In this document: one piece after another, positions 46,314-63,769 of the stretch
How the letters are laid out: every line of letters starts with the position of its first letter
How positions within the stretch are numbered: position 1 is the first letter of the stretch
Assembly: GCA_022072445.1 (NCBI GenBank)
Contig: JAJVHV010000002.1
Location: forward strand, 62,001-126,000
From: Phycisphaerae bacterium
GTDB taxonomy: Bacteria; Planctomycetota; Phycisphaerae; UBA1845; Fen-1342
Length of the DNA: 64,000 nucleotides
Reading direction: 5' to 3'
Notes under the pieces: model-generated
What the model was told of the DNA's origin: nothing
Database searches by the model: none
The model's input: the letters and a program-made list of their open reading frames with translations, nothing else
Program-made: the position numbers and the translations under genes

Positions 46314-46415
46314 GCTCGCTCGGTCGGCGGCACCGTGGCCCAGTCGCGCCGCAAGGCTGCCGCGCACCGGGACCCGTGACACTGTGAATCCGTGGCACGC
46401 GTGGATCGGACGCGC

Positions 46416-46565
46416 CGGGTGCCATGGCGACGGCAGTCTGCGTCGCCATGCTGCGAGGCGCCTGCGGGTATGAGCCACGGGTGGCACCGCCGGGTGCCAT
46501 GGCGACGGCAGTCTGCGTCGCCATGCTGCCGGGCGCCCGCGGGTATGAGCCACGGGTGGCACCGC
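46416..46565. repeat. Two tandem copies of a 75-bp repeat
   Basis: Units at 46416-46490 and 46491-46565 begin CGGGTGCCATGGCGACGGCA and differ at few positions. Within each is an inverted pair GGCGACGGCAG / CTGCGTCGCC. No gene is visible from 46314 to 46663 apart from this block. A possible tRNA promoter (TAGAAT near 46606) lies to its right. Confidence 0.8.
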
Positions 46566-47644: not shown

Positions 47645-50600
47645 GTTTCAATCCGCGCCCCCGGACGGGGGGCGATCCAAGTGTGGCGCAGGCTATCAGC
47701 CTGTGCGCGAGTTTCAATCCGCGCCCCCGGGCGGGGGGCGATAGCGGGGCCACACCAGCGCGTGCCGCACGGCCGGAGGTTTCAATCCGCGCCCCCGGGC
47801 GGGGGGCGATCTTGAACAGGGCGGCGACACCGACGTAGCCGAACTGTTTCAATCCGCGCCCCCGGGCGGGGGGCGATGCCGCACCATCCGCTACAGCCGG
47901 CGTGGAACTGAGGTTTCAATCCGCGCCCCCGGGCGGTGGGCGATCGCGCGTCTCGGCGGCGTTGACGGCCTGCAGCGAGTTTCAATCCGCGCCCCCGGGC
48001 GGGGGGCGATGCCTGTGTGTCACACGGGGTGCCGCCATGTTCCTGTTTCAATCCGCGCCCCCGGGCGGGGGGCGATGCGGCCGACGAGCTGCACGCCGTT
48101 GGCGCAATCGGCGTTTCAATCCGCGCCCCCGGGCGGGGGGCGATGTGCCGGGCCGGTCCTTTCTTCGCTGGTTTTTCTAGTTTCAATCCGCGCCCCCGGG
48201 CGGGGGGCGATTTTTGCCACACGCGTGCGGGCTGCCGTCGGCACTGTTTCAATCCGCGCCCCCGGGCGGGGGGCGATAGCCAGCGCGAGCAAGGGCGGCT
48301 CTATGCGCGGCTGTTTCAATCCGCGCCCCCGGGCGGGGGGCGATGGGACGCATGGGCGATATCTGCGAAAACGGCAGCGGTTTCAATCCGCGCCCCCGGG
48401 CGGGGGGCGATCATTCGTACATGCGAATTGCCGCAATGCATCGTTCGTTTCAATCCGCGCCCCCGGGCGGGGGGCGATGACGCGGATCGCGCGCCAGGCG
48501 GGCGTGCCGCTCGTTTCAATCCGCGCCCCCGGGCGGGGGGCGATCACCTGACTCGACACGACTCGACCCGACGCGACGTGTTTCAATCCGCGCCCCCGGG
48601 CGGGGGGCGATATGTTGTGGATGAATCCTGCACGCCCGCGGTCGGTGTTTCAATCCGCGCCCCCGGGCGGGGGGCGATGGAGCAGCAACAGCGCCGCTTG
48701 ATTGCGAAATGGTTTCAATCCGCGCCCCCGGGCGGGGGGCGATCGCGATATGCGATTGAGTGGCACACGAACAAGCTGTTTCAATCCGCGCCCCCGGGCG
48801 GGGGGCGATGGTTCCGGGTTTGATGGGCAATGCAGGAGCGGGAAGGTTTCAATCCGCGCCCCCGGGCGGGGGGCGATGTCGAGGCCCGGCGGCACGTGCA
48901 GGCCCTGTTCGCGTTTCAATCCGCGCCCCCGGGCGGGGGGCGATCGGTTGACCCGGACTACGACGCCCAACTGGTGAGCGTTTCAATCCGCGCCCCCGGG
49001 CGGGGGGCGATATCCCTGAGCACAAGGACAAGAACATGAGCAGGGCAGTTTCAATCCGCGCCCCCGGGCGGGGGGCGATGACAATTCAGCCATCGTTGCC
49101 GCAATCTCGCAGAGTTTCAATCCGCGCCCCCGGGCGGGGGGCGATGCTCAGGCTCTGGGTTTGACGGATACGCGCTCTAGTTTCAATCCGCGCCCCCGGG
49201 CGGGGGGCGATGCTGCTGCGCGGCCTGACGCGCGAGACGCGCATCCAGTTTCAATCCGCGCCCCCGGGCGGGGGGCGATCTCGCTACTCAGGCTGGGTAT
49301 CTGTATCAGTTACGGTTTCAATCCGCGCCCCCGGGCGGGGGGCGATGCCGATCGCAATCATGGTCTCGCGCGGCACGCCGAAGTTTCAATCCGCGCCCCC
49401 GGGCGGGGGGCGATGCCGCGCCCGCTTCACGCGCAGTGATCCATAATGTTTCAATCCGCGCCCCCGGGCGGGGGGCGATGCGAGAATCCGCCGGCGTTGA
49501 CCGGAATGACGGCGTTTCAATCCGCGCCCCCGGGCGGGGGGCGATCTTAACTACATAGATCAAAACCCACAGCAAACAGTGTTTCAATCCGCGCCCCCGG
49601 GCGGGGGGCGATGAATGGCTGCGGGACACGGCCCTCTAAAACCACAGTTTCAATCCGCGCCCCCGGGCGGGGGGCGATCCTAACTAGGTGCGGGGATTTC
49701 TTTTTGTCGGTGTTTCAATCCGCGCCCCCGGGCGGGGGGCGATCTACCCGCTGAAGATCGCGAGCATAGGGCGGGTCCAGTTTCAATCCGCGCCCCCGGG
49801 CGGGGGGCGATACGAGGGCGAGCACGACATGCCGGCGGATTGGGTTTCAATCCGCGCCCCCGGGCGGGGGGCGATTACGAGGGCGAGCACGACATGCCGG
49901 CGGATTGGGTTTCAATCCGCGCCCCCGGGCGGGGGGCGGTATAGCGACGTGTTCGCGAATCCCTTGGCCAGCGGGAGTTTCAATCCGCGCCCCCGGGCGG
50001 GGGGCGATGCAGACGCCGCCGCGCATGAGGACAGTTGGAGTCCGTTTCAATCCGCGCCCCCGGGCGGGGGGCGATGTGGTGAGCGCGTCGGCCGAGCCGG
50101 ACCAGCCGCGGTTTCAATCCGCGCCCCCGGGCGGGGGGCGATTGTGGAGCCAAGTGCAGGATGGCGACGTGTTCGCGTTTCAATCCGCGCCCCCGGGCGG
50201 GGGGCGATGTGGTGAGCGCGTCGGCCGAGCCGGACCAGCCGCGGTTTCAATCCGCGCCCCCGGGCGGGGGGCGATTGTGGAGCCAAGTGCAGGATGGCGA
50301 CGTGTTCGCGTTTCAATCCGCGCCCCCGGGCGGGGGGCGATCCCGGTACGTTCATCGCCGCCGCGAGCGTCACGCGTTTCAATCCGCGCCCCCGGGCGGG
50401 GGGCGATGGCAACCCCTTCTTCGCCGCGCCGCCATCGGCCCCGTTTCAATCCGCGCCCCCGGGCGGGGGGCGATCGCGGTCATGCGGCTCAGAACTCACG
50501 GACGCGGTGTTTCAATCCGCGCCCCCGGGCGGGGGGCGATGTGATGCAATCTGTTTGGGCGATGAACGGGAGGGAGTTTCAATCCGCGCCCCCGGGCGGG

Positions 50601-53600
50601 GGGCGATGCCGTGCGTCGACGTTGAGTTCCTCTTGAGATTGGGTTTCAATCCGCGCCCCCGGGCGGGGGGCGATGAGAAATCACGGATTCCATGCTCGTA
50701 GGCGATTTCGTTTCAATCCGCGCCCCCGGGCGGGGGGCGATGCCAAGCCCCAGCGCAGCGCGTCCTCGCGCGTGCTGTTTCAATCCGCGCCCCCGGGCGG
50801 GGGGCGATCAGGAACTCGTCGCCGTAGCGCTCGCGGACCAGCTCGTTTCAATCCGCGCCCCCGGGCGGGGGGCGATGTCGTAGACCGTCTCCTGCCGCGT
50901 CGCATAATTGTTTCAATCCGCGCCCCCGGGCGGGGGGCGATGCTGAGGTGGTGGAGGCCCGCGCGCGTCTGATCGTTTCAATCCGCGCCCCCGGGCGGGG
51001 GGCGATGTGGTGATCGGATTTGCCGAGCCCTCCCACCGCCTGTTTCAATCCGCGCCCCCGGGCGGGGGGCGATGTCGCGGGCCTGATCCAGCCCGCGGCG
51101 CTGCAAACCGTTTCAATCCGCGCCCCCGGGTGGGGGGCGATGGCGCGGCTGGGCGCTGCCCAGGAGCCGGGCAACGTTTCAATCCGCGCCCCCGGGCGGG
51201 GGGCGATGTTCAGCTCACCAAAGCGAGGGGTTTGTGGGCATGTTTCAATCCGCGCCCCCGGGCGGGGGGCGATACGGCCTATGCGAGCAACACGCGCGAG
51301 CGCGGTCTGTTTCAATCCGCGCCCCCGGGCGGGGGGCGATGCTTCGACGCGCTGGTCTTCCCCGAGCCGGCGATGTTTCAATCCGCGCCCCCGGGCGGGG
51401 GGCGATCTCTTTCATCTGCTCTAGTGCCAGGTGATATTCGTTTCAATCCGCGCCCCCGGGCGGGGGGCGATCGCATCAATTGCTGCTGGGACAAATCACC
51501 CACTTCGTTTCAATCCGCGCCCCCGGGCGGGGGGCGATTTCGTCCTCCTCCGCCCAAAGGTCCGTGTTGGTGTTTCAATCCGCGCCCCCGGGCGGGGGGC
51601 GATGCCAGCACGACCTTGCACTGTGCAGGGTACAGGTTGTTTCAATCCGCGCCCCCGGGCGGGGGGCGATTGCGGGCGAGATCGGGCGTGACACAAGCCT
51701 AACTGTTTCAATCCGCGCCCCCGGGCGGGGGGCGATCCAGCACGACCTTGCACTGTGCAGGATACAAATTGTTTCAATCCGCGCCCCCGGGCGGGGGGCG
51801 ATAGCGCTGCCCGAGATGTAATCACCCGTGCCAATGTTTCAATCCGCGCCCCCGGGCGGGGGGCGATAGCAGCGGGGACATGAGAGCCGCTTTACCAAGG
51901 CGTTTCAATCCGCGCCCCCGGGCGGGGGGCGATGCCCGTGCTGATGTTCGGATAGCCAAGCATCTCTAGTTTCAATCCGCGCCCCCGGGCGGGGGGCGAT
52001 CCTCAAGGCGTGCGTCAACGCGGTCCTCACCCTCATGTTTCAATCCGCGCCCCCGGACGGGGGGCGATCCGACAGCGCTACTCGGCCTGTCGGGATCATT
52101 CCGAGTTTCAATCCGCGCCCCCGGGCGGGGGGCGATGCCGCGGTCTCGTAAATTCCGGCTGGCATCATCGGTTTCAATCCGCGCCCCCGGGCGGGGGGCG
52201 ATGATCCGCGTGATCGACGAGGGCGTGATTCCGGGCCTGTTTCAATCCGCGCCCCCGGGCGGGGGGCGATCTGGGCAGGCCGTGCCACACCTGGGGCGGG
52301 TCCAGTTTCAATCCGCGCCCCCGGGCGGGGGGCGATCAACTTCGACCCGACCGCCAGCGGCGTCGACTAGTTTCAATCCGCGCCCCCGGGCGGGGGGCGA
52401 TGATACCGTCACGGTGAGCATCGGCAGGCCCGGATAGTTTCAATCCGCGCCCCCGGGCGGGGGGCGATTCGGGGAATGGGGTGGGGGTGGAGTGCGCGCG
52501 AGAGTTTCAATCCGCGCCCCCGGGCGGGGGGCGATCCTCCCCACGCCACGTATGAAACCGGCTCGTTCGTTTCAATCCGCGCCCCCGGGCGGGGGGCGAT
52601 GCGGCGGCTGTTCGCGCTGCTCTACCCGAAGGCGGTTTCAATCCGCGCCCCCGGGCGGGGGGCGATCGCTGCTGCGCGCTGCCACGGTCGTCATGTACAC
52701 GTTTCAATCCGCGCCCCCGGGCGGGGGGCGATGGATTACCTGGGGCCGGTCGAATCCGGCTGGATCGTTTCAATCCGCGCCCCCGGGCGGGGGGCGATAG
52801 TCTGACCACGCTCGTGACGCACTCGGCGGCGTGGTTTCAATCTGCGCCCCCGGGCGGGGGGCGATAGCGGAGCTCGTGCGCTCTCAGGCGGCAGTCCCTG
52901 TTTCAATCCGCGCCCCCGGGCGGGGGGCGATGGAGCCGCTTGCCTCGCCGATGATGGTGCCTTTGTTTCAATCCGCGCCCCCGGGCGGGGGGCGATGTGG
53001 GAGTCGAGTAAAGAAGACTCTTCGTACGGAGTTTCAATCCGCGCCCCCGGGCGGGGGGCGATCAAGGCCAAGGTGGAGGCGGGAATAGCGATTCTCGTTT
53101 CAATCCGCGCCCCCGGGCGGGGGGCGATACCTGGCATTCGACGCCGACGTGCCGGCCGAGCAGTTTCAATCCGCGCCCCCGGGCGGGGGGCGATGGGCGC
53201 GACACGGATCGTCGCGCCGCCCCCGTCAAGGTTTCAATCCGCGCCCCCGGGCGGGGGGCGATCGTGGTGATCGCCGACCCATTGCTGATTGGCGCGTTTC
53301 AATCCGCGCCCCCGGGCGGGGGGCGATTTTGGCCGCGATCTGGCCGAGATCATTGCCGCTCGCGTTTCAATCCGCGCCCCCGGGCGGGGGGCGATTACCC
53401 GTGCCGCCGTACAATCCATCGATCGTCTGCGTTTCAATCCGCGCCCCCGGGCGGGGGGCGATCGTCCGCGAGGCCCAGGCTGACGGCATCGGAACCGTTT
53501 CAATCCGCGCCCCCGGGCGGGGGGCGATCGGCGTCGCCCTGGGCGGTGTGACCGTTGCCGTTCGTTTCAATCCGCGCCCCCGGGCGGGGGGCGATGATCG

Positions 53601-56600
53601 CCGACCGTGGCGCGCTCACACGCGTCGAGTTTCAATCCGCGCCCCCGGGCGGGGGGCGATGGTATGGCAGCCTCAAGACCATCACGCTGCCCCTGTTTCA
53701 ATCCGCGCCCCCGGGCGGGGGGCGATGGCCGGCGATGACGCACGATGATCTGGCGACTTGGTTTCAATCCGCGCCCCCGGGCGGGGGGCGATGATTGCGG
53801 CGTTCATTGTCCACGGCCGCTTTCGACGTTTCAATCCGCGCCCCCGGGCGGGGGGCGATGCCGGATCGTTTGCAACCGGCGGCAAGGGAAAGGGTTTCAA
53901 TCCGCGCCCCCGGGCGGGGGGCGATCCTGACGGCGGGGGATTGGGGATCGGGGATTCGGGTTTCAATCCGCGCCCCCGGGCGGGGGGCGATATGAGGCTC
54001 GCCGGAATCCGCCGGCGGTAAACTCGTTTCAATCCGCGCCCCCGGGCGGGGGGCGATGTCCATTGCATCATCGTCGGCGGGCTCGTCAACTGTTTCAATC
54101 CGCGCCCCCGGGCGGGGGGCGATCGGCTGGCAGCCGCGAATCTCGTTTGTGGATCAGGTTTCAATCCGCGCCCCCGGGCGGGGGGCGATGACGCCGCGAA
54201 TCCCGTCCGTCGGCGTGTACGCGTTTCAATCCGCGCCCCCGGGCGGGGGGCGATCGCGGCTGCTTCCGCCGCAGTGAGGCGATGATCGGTTTCAATCCGC
54301 GCCCCCGGGCGGGGGGCGATCGAGCGGTCGCATAGGTCGGCGGACTCTCAAACTGTTTCAATCCGCGCCCCCGGGCGGGGGGCGATGGTCCGGTCCGTCG
54401 GACAAGTCGGAGTACTCGTAGTTTCAATCCGCGCCCCCGGGCGGGGGGCGATGCGATCCACAAATTCATCCGAGCACCAGTCATCTTGTTTCAATCCGCG
54501 CCCCCGGGCGGGGGGCGATCATCGACGATCCCGACGGATTCATCACCGCCTTTGTTTCAATCCGCGCCCCCGGGCGGGGGGCGATCTGCTCCGTCAGCAA
54601 GCCGGCGTGCTTGAGCCAGTTTCAATCCGCGCCCCCGGGCGGGGGGCGATACGCGTGGCCGCCAATCGTGGCGAGCGCATTGGCGTTTCAATCCGCGCCC
54701 CCGGGCGGGGGGCGATTTCCGGGTTTGATGGGCAATGCAGGTGGGTGAAGGTTTCAATCCGCGCCCCCGGGCGGGGGGCGATCCACCACGTCGCGCCGCA
54801 CCAGCAGCCCGACGCGTTTCAATCCGCGCCCCCGGGCGGGGGGCGATGGGGCCGGCCGAGTTTTCCTCGAGACGGTGAACGCGTTTCAATCCGCGCCCCC
54901 GGGCGGGGGGCGATCGCGCTGGACGTGCATCGGCTGCGGGCGATCGAGTTTCAATCCGCGCCCCCGGGCGGGGGGCGATCCGTCCACGTTCGATGACGTA
55001 AGGATCCCGTGCAGTTTCAATCCGCGCCCCCGGGCGGGGGGCGATACCGCGCAGGCAGTGCTCGCGACGAATACGGCGCTGTTTCAATCCGCGCCCCCGG
55101 GCGGGGGGCGATTTTTCCACGTTGCAGGCGCAACTGTTGCTCGGCGGGTTTCAATCCGCGCCCCCGGGCGGGGGGCGATCGGATTGGGAATGCCTGCGAT
55201 GGAAGGCTCATGGCGGTTTCAATCCGCGCCCCCGGGCGGGGGGCGATGGGCGGCGGCGTGTGCCAGTGCCACGCCGCGCTAGGTTTCAATCCGCGCCCCC
55301 GGGCGGGGGGCGATACACGCCGCAATAGCCGTCCAGCGTCAAGCCGATGTTTCAATCCGCGCCCCCGGGCGGGGGGCGATGCCCTTGGTTCCGACCCGAT
55401 CGACAAGCGCCGCGAGTTTCAATCCGCGCCCCCGGGCGGGGGGCGATGCGGGCAACGTCGTCTACATTTTCCTCGATCAGTGGTTTCAATCCGCGCCCCC
55501 GGGCGGGGGGCGATCTGTGCCCCACGCCTCCGCGGCGTAGCACCGAGAGTTTCAATCCGCGCCCCCGGGCGGGGGGCGATGTCAAAAGCGGCCGTGGACA
55601 ATGAACGCCGCAACCGTTTCAATCCGCGCCCCCGGGCGGGGGGCGATCATTCCCATCCTCGTCCGCGCATCCGCAAGCGATAGTTTCAATCCGCGCCCCC
55701 GGGCGGGGGGCGATCCGCTCTGCATCGCCACTCGGCAGGACCCGGATAGTTTCAATCCGCGCCCCCGGGCGGGGGGCGATGTCGAGTTCCGTTTGAGGTT
55801 TGGTACGTCCCTCACGTTTCAATCCGCGCCCCCGGGCGGGGGGCGATCGCGACACAGCCTCTCGTCCGATTGCAGCAGCGTGTTTCAATCCGCGCCCCCG
55901 GGCGGGGGGCGATGCCCGTGCGCTGTCAGGATGCAGTGCCGAGAAATCGTTTCAATCCGCGCCCCCGGGCGGGGGGCGATCTCTGATGCCATGAACATCC
56001 CAACCAACATACCGTTTCAATCCGCGCCCCCGGGCGGGGGGCGATGGCGCTGCGCCCCCCCCTCCCCGCGGTCACTCTAGTTTCAATCCGCGCCCCCGGG
56101 CGGGGGGCGATCTTCTACCGCTTCAACGACGGAGCGGCTGAAGCGTTTCAATCCGCGCCCCCGGGCGGGGGGCGATGGCAGTCGCCGGCCCGCACGACCA
56201 CGCGGGTTTCACTGTTTCAATCCGCGCCCCCGGGCGGGGGGCGATGCTGCAAGTCGATCCTGTCCGCGTGCTGCTCGAGTTTCAATCCGCGCCCCCGGGC
56301 GGGGGGCGATGGCCGGTACCGAAGATCACGACGCACTCGCCCTTGTTTCAATCCGCGCCCCCGGGCGGGGGGCGATTCGGCTGCATCTCCTCGGCCTGCT
56401 GCCGCGTGCTGTTTCAATCCGCGCCCCCGGGCGGGGGGCGATCGACCAACGCCGAGGACGCGGCGCTGGAGTGGGACGTTTCAATCCGCGCCCCCGGGCG
56501 GGGGGCGATGGCACAGTGCAGCGTGTTGTCGCTGAGGCGGATGTTTCAATCCGCGCCCCCGGGCGGGGGGCGATGGAGCGCATCTTGAATGCCTGGCTGG

Positions 56601-57497
56601 TCCGGCTTGTTTCAATCCGCGCCCCCGGGCGGGGGGCGATAGCGACCCCTGACGCGCGTCCACGTCGTTCGTACTGTTTCAATCCGCGCCCCCGGGCGGG
56701 GGGCGATGCGGGCTCGCCGTGTTGCCGAGGATGACTCCGGCGTTTCAATCCGCGCCCCCGGGCGGGGGGCGATAACAGAGGTTGTGTTTTCAAATCACAG
56801 GGCACTCGTTTCAATCCGCGCCCCCGGGCGGGGGGCGATAAGGCTTCCTGGCTCTCTACACGTCGCGTCCGATGTTTCAATCCGCGCCCCCGGGCGGGGG
56901 GCGATGTTGGGGCGTCGGGCAGGGCGTCGAGCCCGACCTGTTTCAATCCGCGCCCCCGGGCGGGGGGCGATCCACCCACTCGCTCAGCGGATAGGCGTCG
57001 GCTTGTTTCAATCCGCGCCCCCGGGCGGGGGGCGATGGAGCGGCGTTACGGCGAACATGAATTCAGCGGAGTTTCAATCCGCGCCCCCGGGCGGGGGGCG
57101 ATGTACTGCTCGGTCACCATCTGCTTTTCCTTTCAGTTTCAATCCGCGCCCCCGGGCGGGGGGCGATGGTGCGGGCGGCCGGCCGATGCGGTGCGCGTTC
57201 AGTTTCAATCCGCGCCCCCGGGCGGGGGGCGATGTGGCATATGGGCGGCATTCAGCGGCAAGTAGAGGTTTCAATCCGCGCCCCCGGGCGGGGGGCGATG
57301 CCGCATAGAGCGCATATGCCCTTGTCGCGCCGCCGTTTCAATCCGCGCCCCCGGGCGGGGGGCGATCGATGACCTTCGAAATCGGCACTATCTGCGACGC
57401 GTTTCAATCCGCGCCCCCGGGCGGGGGGCGATCCCGACGGGGCGAGCATCCATTGCTGCAAGTGTGTTTCAATCCGCGCCCCCGGGCGGGGGGCGAT
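47645..57497 (-). CRISPR. Type I-C CRISPR array, 149 repeats and 148 spacers
   Basis: Repeats of 32 bases (plus strand GTTTCAATCC... ending GGGGGGCGAT) recur every 64-69 bases. My hand count gives 149 repeats; spacers are mostly 33-36 bases. On the minus strand each repeat ends GGATTGAAAC, the type I-C form, and contains a GC hairpin; the array is transcribed leftwards, away from cas2. Leader-distal repeat 1 (47645-47676) carries an A in the GC core. Other variants: 47913 (T in the G-run), 49909 (GCGGT end), 51110 (GGGTGGGG), 52037 (same A as repeat 1) and 52834 (TCTGCG). No gene or insertion sequence interrupts it. Spacer duplications and diverged pairs are given as findings. Confidence 0.98.
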
Positions 57498-57683
57498 GGT
57501 GTTTACATAACGTCTGCCGCTACCTTCGTCGAGAACAGTGAATCCGCGAACCACGGCGTGGGTGTGGCCGCGGTTCGCGGTCGCAACAACAGCAAATCCT
57601 CTATCCGATTGTCAAAGAACCAGTTACGAGAATCGCGGACCGAGCCGGGTTTCGCCCCTCGCTCACGGTTCGCGATACTCCGC
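57498..57683 (-). promoter_or_regulatory. CRISPR leader between cas2 and the first repeat
   Basis: 186 bases, read leftwards into the array. On the minus strand there is TTGACA (57615-57610), a possible -35 box, without a strong -10 box at 16-18 bases. GGTTCGCG or its complement occurs three times: an inverted pair at 57545-57552 and 57572-57579, and a third copy at 57667-57674. The leader ends GTAAACACC against the first repeat. Such inverted motifs near the leader end of type I arrays help direct spacer insertion; that role here is inference. Confidence 0.7.
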
Positions 57684-57974
57684 TCAGACAATGAGCGGCT
57701 CATCCAAGCCGGTGCTGGTTTCGATCCCGTAGTGCTCGACTCGCCGCTGCCAGTTCTTTCCCAGAAAATAAAAGCGAAGGCTGTCCTGAGCGGGCTCGAT
57801 GAGCGCAAGCAGCCGGTGCCTGAGTTCGGCGAAGCGCGCCGGATCGACCTGACACTCGAAGACCGAGTTCTGCGCGCGCTGACCATAGTCGAGACAAGCC
57901 TTCGCAACCAAGTGCAGCCGCCGCCGGCCGGCTTTGGTCGTGGTGGAAACGTCATAGGTGACCAGTACCATCAT
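57684..57974 (-). CDS. cas2: CRISPR-associated protein Cas2
   Basis: 96 codons. MVLVTYDVSTT at the start (Asp8) and the compact ferredoxin-like pattern with QNSVFECQVDPARFAELR match Cas2, the structural partner of Cas1 in spacer integration. It lies 32 bases after cas1 and 186 bases before the array, the usual last cas gene of a type I-C locus. Confidence 0.95.
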   Translation of the reverse strand: MMVLVTYDVSTTTKAGRRRLHLVAKACLDYGQRAQNSVFECQVDPARFAELRHRLLALIEPAQDSLRFYFLGKNWQRRVEHYGIETSTGLDEPLIV

Positions 57975-58006: not shown

Positions 58007-59038
58007 CTATTTCATGATGAATGCGGGATAGGCATCCAAGTCACCGCGCAGATAGCGCGCCAGCAGCCGCGCCTGTAGGTGGATCAACAGCCCAATCGTG
58101 GTCGTCTCGCCGAGAAACGGATGCTCGACGGTGTCCTGCTTGCGCTTCTGATATGCGACTAGGACCGCCTTTCGCGTAGCTTCATCCATCGCGACGCCGC
58201 CGGCCTCCTCGACGCGAAAGCCGGGCGCCTGAACCTGTCGTCGATTGATCAAGGACAAAACGAGCCGATCCACAAGAAACGCACGAAGCTCTTCCATGAG
58301 GTCGAGGGCGAGTCCGGGCCGACCCGGGCGATCCTCGTGAAGGAACCCGACCGCCGCGTCGAGCCCCGCCGCTTCGCATGCTGCGCGGGCGTCGTGCGCC
58401 AGAATGGCATAGAGAAACGAGAGCAGCGCGTTTACCCGGTCCATCGGCGGCCGGCGCGTGCGTCCGTTCAAGACGAACTCCTTGCTCTGAGCCGTGATCA
58501 TGGCGTTGAACGCGGCAAAGTACGACTTGGCCGCGTCACCCTCGAATCCGCGGAGCACTTCGAGATTCTCGCACCGCCGCACATCATCGAGCGTCGCCAG
58601 CAGGCGGGCCGAGGCGCGGTCGAGCAGCTCCCGGCCAGGAACATCCGGATGGTCGCGGGCGGCGCGGAGCATCACCGTCCGCGCGTTGGCGATCTTGGCC
58701 AGCACAATCGGCCTGGCAATCCGCAGTGCCTGCGCCACACTGTCGGCGCGGCGGTACTGCTCGCGGCGGAGGACCACATTTCCGGGAGTGAAGCCGGTTG
58801 TTGCGGCGATGAAACGGCCCTGCTCGGTCAGAAACGAAACCGCGACGCCGGCCTGCGCGCAGGCGCCGAGCAGGGCCGGGCTGAAGCCGATGGCGCCGAA
58901 AGTGACGACGCCGCCAAGATTGTGCAACGGAACGCGGAGCTTGGTCTGGTTCTGGACACGCACGGCGATCGTCTGTCCGTCCTTGCGCAGGAAGGCCCGC
59001 GGCGTCGTGACAAAGAGGGTGTTGAGGTGTTGCTTCAT
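58007..59038 (-). CDS. cas1: CRISPR-associated endonuclease Cas1 (subtype I-C)
   Basis: 343 codons from ATG 59038; its first bases overlap the cas4 stop (ATGA). TPRAFLRKDGQTIAV starts the beta-strand domain, and the helical domain has the metal ligands Glu166 (RGFEGDAA), His234 (GFLHEDRPGRPGLALDL) and an acid at Asp246 or Glu249. It is the integrase that inserts spacers at the leader-repeat junction. All expected residues are present. Confidence 0.96.
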   Translation of the reverse strand: MKQHLNTLFVTTPRAFLRKDGQTIAVRVQNQTKLRVPLHNLGGVVTFGAIGFSPALLGACAQAGVAVSFLTEQGRFIAATTGFTPGNVVLRREQYRRADSVAQALRIARPIVLAKIANARTVMLRAARDHPDVPGRELLDRASARLLATLDDVRRCENLEVLRGFEGDAAKSYFAAFNAMITAQSKEFVLNGRTRRPPMDRVNALLSFLYAILAHDARAACEAAGLDAAVGFLHEDRPGRPGLALDLMEELRAFLVDRLVLSLINRRQVQAPGFRVEEAGGVAMDEATRKAVLVAYQKRKQDTVEHPFLGETTTIGLLIHLQARLLARYLRGDLDAYPAFIMK

Positions 59039-59778
59039 CGATTGGGCTTCCCTGAAGCGGAGTCGGCCGCCGCATCCGCCAGCGCGCGGTCGAGATAGCG
59101 CGAGGCGGCTCGCGGCGAGGCGGGTACGTCCGGCAGGCAGAGGTGTATGAGCGAGCAGCGCTCGCACTTCGCCTTGTCGTAAACTGCCCGTGGCGAGCGA
59201 CGGCTGGCGATGAGCTCGTGCAGCCGCGACGCGGCCTGTTCAGTCGACTGCCGCAACGCCGTATCGAACACGACGCTCTCCCTGTGGCGCGTGCGGCCGT
59301 AGAAGAGCGCCCCGGCCGGCACCGCGACGTGCAGCGATTCCTCCAGGCAAAGCGCTTGCGCACAGAGCTGTACGCGGTCGGCGTCATGTTTCTTCGGCCG
59401 ACCACGTTTGTATTCGACCGGGAATGGCAGCGCGACGCTGTTCGTGCGATCGGCACCCGCGGCGGCGTTTCCGACGACAGCTTGCTCGTGGAATTCAACC
59501 ACATCCGCGACGCCGAATAGCCCCAACGTGAGGCTGCGCAGATGCATGCCGCGCACGATGTGCACTTCCGTGCCATGGCTGTTGCGGCGAGCCCCGTCCA
59601 AGCCGCCGCCGCGCGGGCCGGCGCGCTGGCCGTGGGCTTTCTCGTGCAGATGGCGTCCTTCGATGGTCAGGCGATTCTCGACCCAGAGGCGCTCGATGTG
59701 AATGAGCGCGCATTGCCGCTCGCAGAAGAGCAGGTGTTGCAGGGCGGAGATGGGCAATAGGTCGGATTCGGAGTACAT
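59035..59778 (-). CDS. cas4: CRISPR-associated exonuclease Cas4
   Basis: 247 codons from the second ATG (59778), which has GAGGG seven bases upstream. It carries one N-terminal iron-sulfur Cys (LLFCERQC), RecB-type nuclease motifs GVADVVEF and PVEYKRGRPKKHDADRVQL (Asp, Glu, Lys) and three C-terminal cysteines in KCERCSLIHLC. Cas4 trims prespacers and selects those with the correct PAM and orientation. It is coupled to cas1 by overlap. Confidence 0.94.
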   Translation of the reverse strand: MYSESDLLPISALQHLLFCERQCALIHIERLWVENRLTIEGRHLHEKAHGQRAGPRGGGLDGARRNSHGTEVHIVRGMHLRSLTLGLFGVADVVEFHEQAVVGNAAAGADRTNSVALPFPVEYKRGRPKKHDADRVQLCAQALCLEESLHVAVPAGALFYGRTRHRESVVFDTALRQSTEQAASRLHELIASRRSPRAVYDKAKCERCSLIHLCLPDVPASPRAASRYLDRALADAAADSASGKPNR

Positions 59779-59855
59779 GGCCATCCCTCAACCCAGTCGG
59801 CCTTCCTCACAGCACTCTCGGGCAGAAGGCCGACGATTCGACCGCCGAAGTGCAA

Positions 59856-60836
59856 CTACAGCTTGCCCATGTCGCGCGGCAATTCCAGCAACTCGACGCC
59901 GTTGGGGACGTTGTCGCGCACAATCTCGATGCGGCCAGGCCAATAGTCGGACCAGCGGCGTGGCGCGCCGTCGGTGCCGAACTGCGTGATCTTCACGACA
60001 TCCTCGAACAGCACCTGTGCCGGGCAGCAGCCGAGCATGGCCTGTCGCGTGCGCTGTTCGGGATCGCTGTCGGTGCCGACGTGCTTGAAGACGTAGATCG
60101 GCTGGCGCACCGTCATGACGCCCTTGCTGGCCGAGCGATCGTGCTCGTACATGTTGAGGACGGCCTCGAAGAGCAGCTTGAGGTCGTCCTTCGAGAAGCC
60201 AGTCTGCTGTGCCAAGTGGGCGCTGATGAAGCCCTTGCCGACGAAGAGGCCGTACGGGATGAGCGACTTGCGGCCCATCGTGCGGAGCTTGTCCTCGGGT
60301 TGCTCGGCTTCCCACTTTTCGTAGTCTGCCGCGCCCTTCGCGCCCTTGATCTCCTCGGCCACCGCCATGCGAGTGATCGACAGGTCCAGCGGAAGGATGG
60401 CATCGATTGAGCGCGCAAAGGCGATCTGCACCGGTCCGCGCACCTGCCCCGCATTCGGTCCGGTGGACATCACGGCCCCGAACGTGCGGACGTCGTAGAA
60501 GTTCTCGCACATCCAACGACGGGCCTTCTCAACCTGGTCCTTGTTGGCGCCCTTGTCTCCCTGCGGGACGCCGCCGGTCTTCTCATGCGCCCGTGTGATC
60601 TCCGTGTTCAGATTCGAGGCGTGCTCGACGAAGATCGCGTTCGGCATCTTGTTCCCGCGCGCTGCCTGTACGTAGTTGCGAATGCGGCGCTTGATCGCGA
60701 CATCCGAGACCAGTCCGCGCATGTCCTGCGGATCGATGCGTGGCGAGTTGCCGGCGTCGGGATCGCCGTTGGGGTTGCCGTTTTCGCAGTCGAACAGAAA
60801 GAGGAATTCGTAACGATTACTGATGACCGTTGACAT
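59856..60836 (-). CDS. cas7c: Type I-C Cascade backbone protein Cas7c (Csd2)
   Basis: 326 codons from ATG 60836 (AAAGGA upstream). [20 protein letters not shown] and [20 protein letters not shown] are diagnostic of Csd2. Several copies coat the crRNA in the type I-C interference complex. It follows cas8c after 40 bases and precedes cas4 by 77 bases. Confidence 0.95.
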
Positions 60837-60876
60837 GATTGCGTTCGTCCTTTCCACATCGATGTTTGGTTTCGTT

Positions 60877-61263
60877 TCAAGCTGACATCGAGTTGTCGTC
60901 GGCGGAGCCGCCCCGCGCCGCCAATTGGTGGTAGTAGCCCATCGCGAAGAGCGTCTGCTCTTCGAGCGTAAGCGTCTTGGGCGGCGCCGCGCGCATCTGC
61001 TGCCACACTCCGGCGAGCTGCTGCTGGAACCAGTGCGCGAGTCCGGGCCTGTCCTTTCGGATCGTGGGTATGTGCGCGATTTCGGACAGTCGGACGAGGC
61101 GACCCAGATGCAGCGCGGGACAAATGCTGGTCGCGGCGTAGCAACGTTCGACCACTCCCGCGTCGACATTCGGGAGCGCCGTACGCTGGATGCGCGCGAC
61201 GAGCGCCATGACTCGACCCGAGAGATAGGCCGGGTGGGCGAGTGAATCTAGCTTCTCGGACAC
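60877..61263 (-). CDS. cas11c: Small subunit Cas11c from internal start within cas8c
   Basis: In frame with cas8c, a GTG at 61263-61261 (codon 467) is preceded six bases upstream by AAAGGAG at 61276-61270, a strong ribosome site inside a coding region. The product would be 128 residues, [20 protein letters not shown] onward, all helical. Internal translation of Cas11c from cas8c is established for type I-C systems; this site is the obvious candidate here. Confidence 0.75.
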
Positions 61264-62661
61264 GTGAATCTCCTTTCGACCCAGGTATGCGCGCAACAGG
61301 CCATACTGCGCGTGGCGGGGCGTTTGACCGGTAGTTACGTCCAGGCGCGCCCGCGCGAGCGCGCGGGCCGCAATGTCTGCGGGGATTGGCGTTCCTGTCA
61401 GCGCCGCGTGCCAAAGCGCGTTCACGGCAGGAGGGGTGAGCTCGTCCAGGTCACGCACGGTCGCCGCCAGAACCGCCAGGAACTTGGGATCCGGCGCCGT
61501 CCCGTCGCCGCCACGAGCGACGATGCGTAGATCGCTGAACCACTGATCCACAGTTCGCGCCAACTGCTCGAACGATCCTTCCATCCAGTCTCGCACGACG
61601 ACGCGCGCCGAGTTGCCGGACATCGTCATCGCGTTGAAGCGCAGGGTAGCAAGATCAGCGCGCTGGCCGGTCCGGATTGCCTCCAGCAGGTCGCGAGCGA
61701 GGTGGAGCGCCTGCGTCTCTCCCCGTCGGTCGGTTGTGGACCCGTGCTGCTCATCGTCGTCTCGCGACGACGTCACTCCGGCGCCGCGAAGCAGAAGCTG
61801 GACCGGATCCTCTTCCGGGCTCACCTCATGCTTCCGGCCGATGAACCAGTAGATCACCTTCGTTCCGGCCAGTGTGACGCTCCGGTGCTCGATCAGGTCG
61901 TTCAGCGCCGCCGCGTACTGCTCGGCCGGCTCCTTACCGACCGCCGCATTGCGCGACTGCTCAAGTCCGTACGAACAGAAGGCGTCCTGATTGAACCCGA
62001 TCAGCGTTGTCTCCACCTTGCCGCCGACGCCGCCCAGTCCCTTGATCTTCGGGTGTGTCCGCGCCGGTTCGAGCAACTCGCCCGTCAGCAGGCAGGGAGT
62101 CGGCTCGGCGGGCTCGTCATCGCTCTTGAAGAGCGTCGGGAAGTAGCCGCGCCACCACTCGTGCCAGCCATCGTCCTCGACCAGGATTTGCGGCTCGCCC
62201 TCGTCAATCACCGCGAAGGTCACGTTTTCTGACGGCTTGGCCGGCTTCGAATGCGATGCCAGATCAGCGCACACCTTCTCACGCGTTTCGGTGTCCGAGA
62301 GCGCATTGAAGAGCATTCGAAACCGGCGATCCGCCTCGCCGGCCTCGTTCAGCAACCGGAGGAAGTACTCGTGCTTGGCGCGCAGCTTCTTATCCGACTT
62401 GTCGGCCTCGTACAGCAGCGCATACTCCGCGGTGTCGATCAAGAATTGCCGCATCGGCGTATCACCGGAGAATTTCAGGTGCGGCGCCTTGGCGAACGTC
62501 CGGCCCTTGCTGCCTCTCGTGTTGGGGTCGGTCAGGTCCAGCACGTTCAGGAAGCGCCCCTTGGCGTTGAACACGACCAGCCAGCGGACCGTCTTGCGGG
62601 TGAAGCCGGCTTCGGCGTCCAGACCCTTGCGCCGCGCATATTGAACCAATGCGTGCAACAT
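60877..62661 (-). CDS. cas8c: Type I-C large subunit Cas8c (Csd1)
   Basis: 594 codons. The start [40 protein letters not shown], the [10 protein letters not shown] region and the C-terminal helical part agree with Csd1. It recognises the PAM and opens the target in the interference complex. Its ATG shares one base with the cas5c stop (TGATG). The last 128 codons also encode the small subunit from an internal start. Confidence 0.95.
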
Positions 62662-63371
62662 CAGCCGGCCCTCCGCGCGGGTTTGCGCACTTCCTTGCTC
62701 TCGTACGCCGGAAAATTCAGCACACCGCTGCGGATCACCGCGTGAAACAGGCTGATAGACGGCTGGTCGTTGCTGCCGCCCGGCCGCGACAGGTCGAACA
62801 CGTCGTAGACCATGAAGCCGACATCCTGATCCAGCGGCACAGGCGGCTTCTCCCGCTGTTCGCGTTCGACGTCTTCGACCAGGCGAAAGAACGCGACGAA
62901 CTCGCGGCAGCCCAGGTACGGCTGCTGGAAGCACTTCCCCTGCGATGCGCGCCGGCGAAACTGTTCGTCGAACGCCGTCTGCTGGCGCTCGAAGCCAGGC
63001 CAGGGTACGATGCGGGCGTGAATGCGATAGCGCGGATTGCGGATCGCCATCGTCTGCCGCTGCTGGCGTGTGCCGCTGTCGTCGGCCATCAGGGCGACCG
63101 CCTGGGCGCCCTTGATCCACTTGCCGATGTTGGTCACGCTGGCCACGTCGCCCACCTCGTTGCGGCGCAGCGCGATGTACGTCGGCATCGCCAGCAATTC
63201 GACCCGCGTGACCTGCCAGCGGAATTCGGGCGGATGACAGTAGATTGCGTCGAGCAGGCCGCGGGCGCCGCTGTGCGGCGGAATTTGGAAGGACCAGCGC
63301 TCGACCTTGAGCTCCGGTCGGCTATAGCACGCGAAATCGCCCCATACCTCGATGACGTGTGTCGTGCTCAT
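62661..63371 (-). CDS. cas5c: Type I-C crRNA endonuclease Cas5c
   Basis: 236 codons from ATG 63371 with AAGGAGA upstream. HVIEVWGDFACYSRPELKVE and HPPEFRWQVTRVELL are typical of Cas5 of subtype I-C (Cas5d). In this subtype Cas5 replaces Cas6 and cuts the repeat hairpin, leaving an 11-base 5' handle ending TTGAAAC. The start overlaps the stop of a small upstream ORF (ATGA). Confidence 0.95.
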   Translation of the reverse strand: MSTTHVIEVWGDFACYSRPELKVERWSFQIPPHSGARGLLDAIYCHPPEFRWQVTRVELLAMPTYIALRRNEVGDVASVTNIGKWIKGAQAVALMADDSGTRQQRQTMAIRNPRYRIHARIVPWPGFERQQTAFDEQFRRRASQGKCFQQPYLGCREFVAFFRLVEDVEREQREKPPVPLDQDVGFMVYDVFDLSRPGGSNDQPSISLFHAVIRSGVLNFPAYESKEVRKPARRAG

Positions 63372-63592
63372 GGCTTGCTCTCCTTGTGTCGCGCTCCGAC
63401 CCAGCCGCGCTTGCGCGCGCTGAGGAAGCAGTGCCAACTCTGATCCTTGCGCAGCGGGCCGACCGTGGCGCTGAGTTGCTCGTGCAAGAGGTCGAACGCG
63501 GGCGTGTACGGGAGCCGATCGAGCGGAGGTGCGGTTCTCGCCAGTTCGGCGGCGGTCCTGAGCTGCCGGGCGGTGGGCTTCCAGTTCTTCAC
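63368..63592 (-). CDS. Small unknown protein coupled to cas5c
   Basis: 74 codons from a GTG at 63592, chosen because AGGAG lies nine bases upstream; an ATG at 63661 would overlap the promoter. The sequence KNWKPTARQLRTAAELARTA then LDRLPYTPAFDLLHEQLSA and WHCFLSARKRGWVG is mostly helical and basic. It does not match any Cas protein I know. The stop overlaps the cas5c start (ATGA), so it is translated first in the cas operon. It could be a regulator, a structural accessory of the complex, or an unrelated passenger. Confidence 0.6.
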   Translation of the reverse strand: MKNWKPTARQLRTAAELARTAPPLDRLPYTPAFDLLHEQLSATVGPLRKDQSWHCFLSARKRGWVGARHKESKP

Positions 63593-63614
63593 TGCGGCTT
63601 TCTCCTGATCGGTT

Positions 63615-63748
63615 TGACAGCCACAGTACCAAATGATAAAGTATGACGATGCCGCAGTCAAGGCTCTCCACCGCTTTCGCGTGTGTTTTTTGCGTCAATG
63701 TCGCCTTCGCTCCAGAAGGCGGGGCTTGAAACGGTACTGTGGCTGTCA
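63615..63748. promoter_or_regulatory. 16-bp inverted repeat flanking the cas operon promoter
   Basis: TGACAGCCACAGTACC at 63615-63630 recurs as its exact reverse complement at 63733-63748. Centres are 118 bases apart. The proximal arm covers the expected transcription start; the distal arm lies about 110 bases upstream. This may be an operator pair, or the arms of an RNA hairpin in transcripts reading through from cas3. Confidence 0.6.
63633..63661 (-). promoter_or_regulatory. Sigma-70 promoter of the cas5-cas8-cas7-cas4-cas1-cas2 operon
   Basis: On the minus strand TTGACT (63661-63656), a 17-base spacer and TATCAT (63638-63633). The expected start lies near 63626, 34 bases before the GTG of the small ORF. 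It separates transcription of the later cas genes from cas3. One arm of a 16-bp inverted repeat covers the start site. Confidence 0.65.
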
Positions 63749-63769
63749 CTTAACGCGTGCGGAGCACCG

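Follow-up and report, generated by a model that had tools for sequence, protein, structure and literature searches.

How does a CRISPR array served by Cas4 come to hold two spacers that are reverse complements of each other? The question is raised by a type I-C locus of a Phycisphaerae bacterium, contained in a window of 64,000 nucleotides (GenBank assembly GCA_022072445.1, contig JAJVHV010000002.1, positions 62,001 to 126,000), in which spacers 93 and 120 form such a pair. In our view they are very probably two independent captures of one short stretch, made from variants of an invader that was itself probably a virus.

The locus and the polarity of its array

The coordinates of the array, of the spacers discussed below and of the cas genes are given in Table 1. 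An earlier note on this DNA had assigned the system to type I-C with Cas4, and both the profile matches and the alignments of the cas genes bear this out. NCBIfam I-C models score above cut-off for Csd1, Csd2, Cas5c and Cas1c, Cas4 is recognized by TIGR00372, cas2 adjoins the array, and the repeat is of the I-C type, close to the repeats of D. vulgaris I-C. The helicase-nuclease Cas3 would be expected on the far side of cas5c, where the window ends or further on. When aligned with four I-C Cas4 proteins, Cas4 is seen to retain C21, C207, C210 and C216 as well as D94, E124 and K126. With the cluster cysteines and the D...ExK residues kept, the device that sets orientation shows no sign of breakage and, judged by their sequences, Cas4, Cas1 and Cas2 all look intact. 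Cas4 also carries an insertion of about 14 residues (around residues 64-78) that is absent from the four other I-C proteins.

Table 1. Position of the CRISPR array, selected spacers and cas genes in the window.
Feature	Position	Strand	Remarks
CRISPR array	47645..57497	-	149 repeats of 32 nt, 148 spacers; + strand repeat GTTTCAATCCGCGCCCCCGGGCGGGGGGCGAT
Spacer 18	48810..48845	-	older of pair 18/107; same orientation
Spacers 33 and 34	49812-49908		adjacent; identical save one extra PAM-distal base
Spacer 35	49941..49976	-	16-nt overlap with spacer 38; TTC directly 5' of overlap
Spacer 38	50143..50176	-	identical copy is spacer 40 (50276-50309)
Spacer 60	51604..51638	-	older of pair 60/62; same orientation
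Spacer 62	51737..51770	-	newer; flush with 60 at PAM end, other end 1 nt shorter
Spacer 93	53793..53827	-	older of pair 93/120; crRNA sense GTCGAAAGCGGCCGTGGACAATGAACGCCGCAATC
Spacer 107	54717..54750	-	newer; flush with 18 at PAM end, other end 2 nt shorter
Spacer 120	55581..55615	-	newer of pair 93/120; crRNA sense GGTTGCGGCGTTCATTGTCCACGGCCGCTTTTGAC
Putative leader region	57498..57683	-	between cas2 and newest repeat; assigned by position
cas2	57684..57974	-	96 aa; 53-59% identity to four annotated I-C Cas2
cas1c	58007..59038	-	TIGR03640, 480 bits, above cut-off; aligned to I-C Cas1
cas4	59035..59784	-	TIGR00372 above cut-off
cas7/csd2	59856..61169	-	TIGR02589 above cut-off; start probably inside ORF
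cas8c/csd1	60877..63120	-	TIGR01863 above cut-off; start probably inside ORF
cas5c	62661..63749	-	TIGR01876 above cut-off; start probably inside ORF

Spacer lengths range from 32 to 37 nt, 34 and 35 being the commonest among the 148. In this genome the repeats, which carry a palindromic core, keep one orientation throughout the array, and their 4768 nt contain six substitutions, all of them single-base variants located in the left half. Plasmid-borne I-C loci annotated in Nitratidesulfovibrio, Zymomonas and a Geminicoccaceae bacterium are laid out in the same way. Taken together, the repeat variants at the left (the old end) and the layout of the annotated loci place the leader at the right end and make the minus strand the crRNA sense. 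It follows that spacer 93 is the older member of the pair and spacer 120 the newer. A block of two spacers is duplicated exactly within the array, 37-38 recurring as 39-40 (50076-50309). The PAM-distal last base is a C in 70 of the 148 spacers, compared with about 32% expected from base composition. Immediately to the left of the array lies a 75-nt tandem duplication, 96% identical (46413-46562).

Spacers 93 and 120 match in opposite orientation

Re-parsing the array by script gave GATTGCGGCGTTCATTGTCCACGGCCGCTTTCGAC for spacer 93 and GGTTGCGGCGTTCATTGTCCACGGCCGCTTTTGAC for the reverse complement of spacer 120. The two sequences differ at positions 2 and 32 only, which makes 33 matches in 35, and they are equal in length and flush at both ends of the alignment. 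A comparison of the same two spacers in direct orientation yielded no match. The earlier note, which described them as reverse complements of each other, was thus right, its numbering and coordinates being exact, and the flush match supports its further claim that one target was captured in both orientations. Chance can be rejected as the source of the match, since only about 4e-12 pairs as good as this one are expected; the local score of the pair is 30, against a best of 12-13 in shuffled spacer sets. Palindromy is rejected as well, as either spacer is identical to its own reverse complement at just 14 of 35 positions. Among the 148 spacers compared, 93/120 is the sole significant pair in opposite orientation.

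Read as codons, the two differences occupy the same phase, and there is one frame in each direction in which both are synonymous. Agreement in phase has a chance of 1/3 and is weak evidence; for what it is worth, the pattern would fit two viral variants better than decay inside the array, whose repeats have changed at only the six positions mentioned above.

Recaptures in the same orientation, PAM and seed

Two further pairs, 60/62 and 18/107, consist of near-identical sequences in the same orientation. In both of them, and in the neighbours 33/34, the crRNA 5′ (PAM-side) ends coincide and the other ends differ, by 1, 2 and 1 nt, respectively. This is what a PAM-fixed end combined with a loose ruler predicts. 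Sharing of PAM-side ends, with far ends off by 1-2 nt, indicates that recapture from one site is usual in this array. Spacers 33/34 may represent either a recapture into the neighbouring position or a 1-nt slip.

A PAM can be read inside the array itself. Spacers 35 and 38 are identical at 15 of the 16 nt of their overlap, and the sequence preceding spacer 38 is TTC, a single event with a background of about 1%. This triplet agrees with the PAM established for type I-C, which reads GAA on the opposite strand; as far as one dovetailed spacer pair goes, the earlier note is supported in taking TTC as the PAM. Newly acquired spacers of Legionella pneumophila I-C showed the GAA equivalent in 20 of 22 cases (PMC5071653).

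Relative to the older crRNA, the newer sequence differs at positions 3, 4 and 9 in pair 60/62, at 5, 7 and 9 in pair 18/107, and at 4 and 34 when spacer 93 is set against the reverse complement of spacer 120. The first nine positions of the older crRNA thereby hold seven of the eight differences. The seed alone (positions 1-5, 7 and 8, as defined in PMC5071653) holds five of the eight (binomial p ~0.011), or four of six if the 93/120 pair is left out (p ~0.018), in a test that deals with small numbers and with a pattern spotted prior to testing. To the extent that sequence can tell, the concentration of differences in the seed suggests escape followed by (primed) recapture. PMC5071653 describes a comparable behaviour in L. 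pneumophila I-C, where newer spacers resample regions whose older spacers bear seed or PAM mismatches.

Two PAMs or a backward insertion

The earlier note offered two explanations for the opposite orientations, a PAM at each end of the target or one backward insertion, and these are indeed the two that matter. We favour the former, in its form with TTC on both strands 35 nt apart, and give it about an even chance. An ordinary type I-C/Cas4 adaptation machine would take the same stretch on two occasions, each time from a different variant of the invader. On either strand the stretch would begin with a 5′ TTC (TTC-N35-GAA), making each strand a correctly oriented protospacer with the identical two boundaries. 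Spacer 93 would be acquired first; an invader variant with a mismatch at seed position 4 of this spacer would then be sampled anew, this time from the opposite strand's PAM and plausibly by priming, to give spacer 120. The pair, its register, the polarity of the array, the I-C/Cas4 setting and one internal TTC PAM are all direct observations; the virus, the PAM at both ends and the priming are inferred. In favour of two PAMs is that no flip error is needed and that the Cas4 cysteines and nuclease residues are kept. The cost is a coincidence since, going by triplet frequency, a given spacer would have GAA directly abutting its far end in only about 1% of cases; moreover, if two-sided targets were usual, opposite pairs in shifted register should outnumber flush ones, and none was seen.

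The rival explanation is that the prespacer went in backwards at one of the captures, the target having TTC on one side only and both captures having begun there; we put its chances somewhat short of even. If a single site had been flipped, the two spacers should share both boundaries exactly and have equal length (for which the chance is 30%), as they do. Such events are on record: flipped spacers were estimated at <0.5% in the I-F system of Pectobacterium atrosepticum (PMC5059440), and PMC4117759 cites "oppositely oriented spacers" in the I-E system of E. coli. The two explanations can be compared by simple arithmetic, which assumes that both sites are resampled equally. For two PAMs, a GAA must lie flush with the far end (~0.011) and the second spacer must also measure 35 nt (0.30); a flip requires that either spacer be flipped (2f, f being the flip rate) and, again, equal length (0.30). 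The resulting odds of two PAMs to flip are ~0.0055/f, with break-even at a flip rate of about 0.5%, and an f of 1-2% favours the flip. The I-F estimate lies close to break-even, and it is the intact Cas4, together with the lack of any benefit from a flip, that tips the balance towards two PAMs. Cas4 is apparently intact from its sequence, and I-C Cas4-Cas1-Cas2 cuts precisely at the PAM (PMC6519985). The crRNA of a reversed spacer would have no PAM at its target and could not support efficient interference, so that selection would not favour its retention. No other reversed pair occurs among the 148 spacers of this array, nor among 340 spacers of other I-C arrays, a set with one same-orientation recapture and too small to give a flip rate. 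Repeat scans of the class and phylum, run with a pattern too short by one base to pick up the array studied here, yielded small I-C arrays whose repeat is shorter. Were the flip correct, and we regard what follows as a possibility on the doubtful side, a natural I-C system with an intact-looking Cas4 would have integrated a prespacer backwards, its control of orientation would leak in nature, and the two crRNAs, complementary at 33 of 35 positions, could pair. The earlier note had singled out the pair on the ground that Cas4 normally fixes orientation; this was overstated, as two PAMs on opposite strands break no orientation rule and flips are documented in other type I systems as an error of low frequency.

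Rearrangement accounts for the pair far less well. Copying and inversion of spacer 93 inside the array (by inversion or gene conversion), giving spacer 120, is the least probable of the explanations considered, even though the array does rearrange, as the 37-38/39-40 block shows, and its repeats have a palindromic core. Had a lone spacer been inverted by recombination at the repeat palindromes, the repeats beside it should be broken hybrids, whereas all 149 repeats face the same way and those flanking spacers 93 and 120 are perfect; this excludes the array inversion that the earlier note had also entertained. Furthermore, the internal duplicate is free of differences, compared with two in 35 for the 93/120 pair. 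It is also highly improbable that the invader carried the target twice, as an inverted repeat or an invertible segment, and that both copies were captured. Inverted copies would account for two slightly different sequences. However, a spacer takes its orientation from the PAM carried along with the protospacer and not from the genome strand, so that an inverted copy with its own PAM would give the same orientation, and either a flip or PAMs on both sides are still required. An invertible target is rejected on this ground.

Relation to known systems

Oppositely oriented spacers were reportedly described in E. coli type I-E by Shmakov et al. in 2014. To our knowledge, Cas4 is absent from this system and from the I-F system of P. 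atrosepticum; it is present with the array studied here. The 93/120 pair resembles the flipped spacers of P. atrosepticum (PMC5059440) and the oppositely oriented ones of E. coli in showing one protospacer in reverse orientation with matching boundaries. Those cases are short-term laboratory acquisitions from known targets, whereas 93/120 sits in a natural I-C array. A second parallel is the I-C system of L. pneumophila Toronto-2005 facing LME-1, in which the older spacer is mismatched in seed or PAM and the newer one samples the same region of a variant, and for which primed recapture was proposed (PMC5071653). There the target, LME-1, is known, and the pairs are described as overlapping, with no mention of exact reverse complements in the text consulted. 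The Cas4-Cas1-Cas2 complex of Bacillus halodurans I-C (PMC6519985) is the same adaptation module and explains the PAM-anchored end of the recaptured pairs; that work was done in vitro, as opposed to the natural array analysed here, and states that the fixing of orientation is not fully known.

Opposite orientation and flipping are thus already known, and 93/120 is a neat natural example. As an exact-register opposite pair in a natural Cas4 system, it provides a test of how strictly Cas4 sets orientation outside the laboratory. The three same-orientation recaptures, each with one end fixed and one variable, form together with the seed differences a condensed history of escape followed by recapture. 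Neither the pair nor the recaptures change the accepted model of I-C adaptation.

Searches for protospacers

The shared target of spacers 93 and 120, which may be written AAAGCGGCCGTGGACAATGAACGCCGCAA, gave no convincing match in IMG/VR with a degenerate coding pattern, with its 17-nt core (best 23/35) or with a third-position-free pattern (best 25/35). The protospacer, and with it the flanks that would show a PAM on either side, was likewise not found in GTDB genome contigs, in GenBank phages, in the bacterium's own genome and family, or in 114 genomes of the order that were scanned with all spacers. IMG/VR patterns for 60/62, for 18/107 and for the 35/38 overlap returned no protospacer either. 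As the IMG/VR and GTDB scans were pattern-exact and the collections are finite, a missing protospacer says little. When most of the array was compared with phages by BLAST, weak repeat-like matches appeared to dominate.

Two other spacers resemble sequences of the host or of its relatives. Spacer 56 (51341-51374) matches the host chromosome at 33 of 34 positions (contig C1:237957-237989), with the mismatch at position 1 and TTG in place of TTC alongside; homologous sites exist in several relatives. From its sequence, this could be a case of tolerated self-targeting. Spacer 1, the oldest (47677-47710), resembles a partly palindromic sequence, GCACAGGCTGATAGCCTG, present in the relatives L103 and L102 (28/34 and 26/34, respectively).
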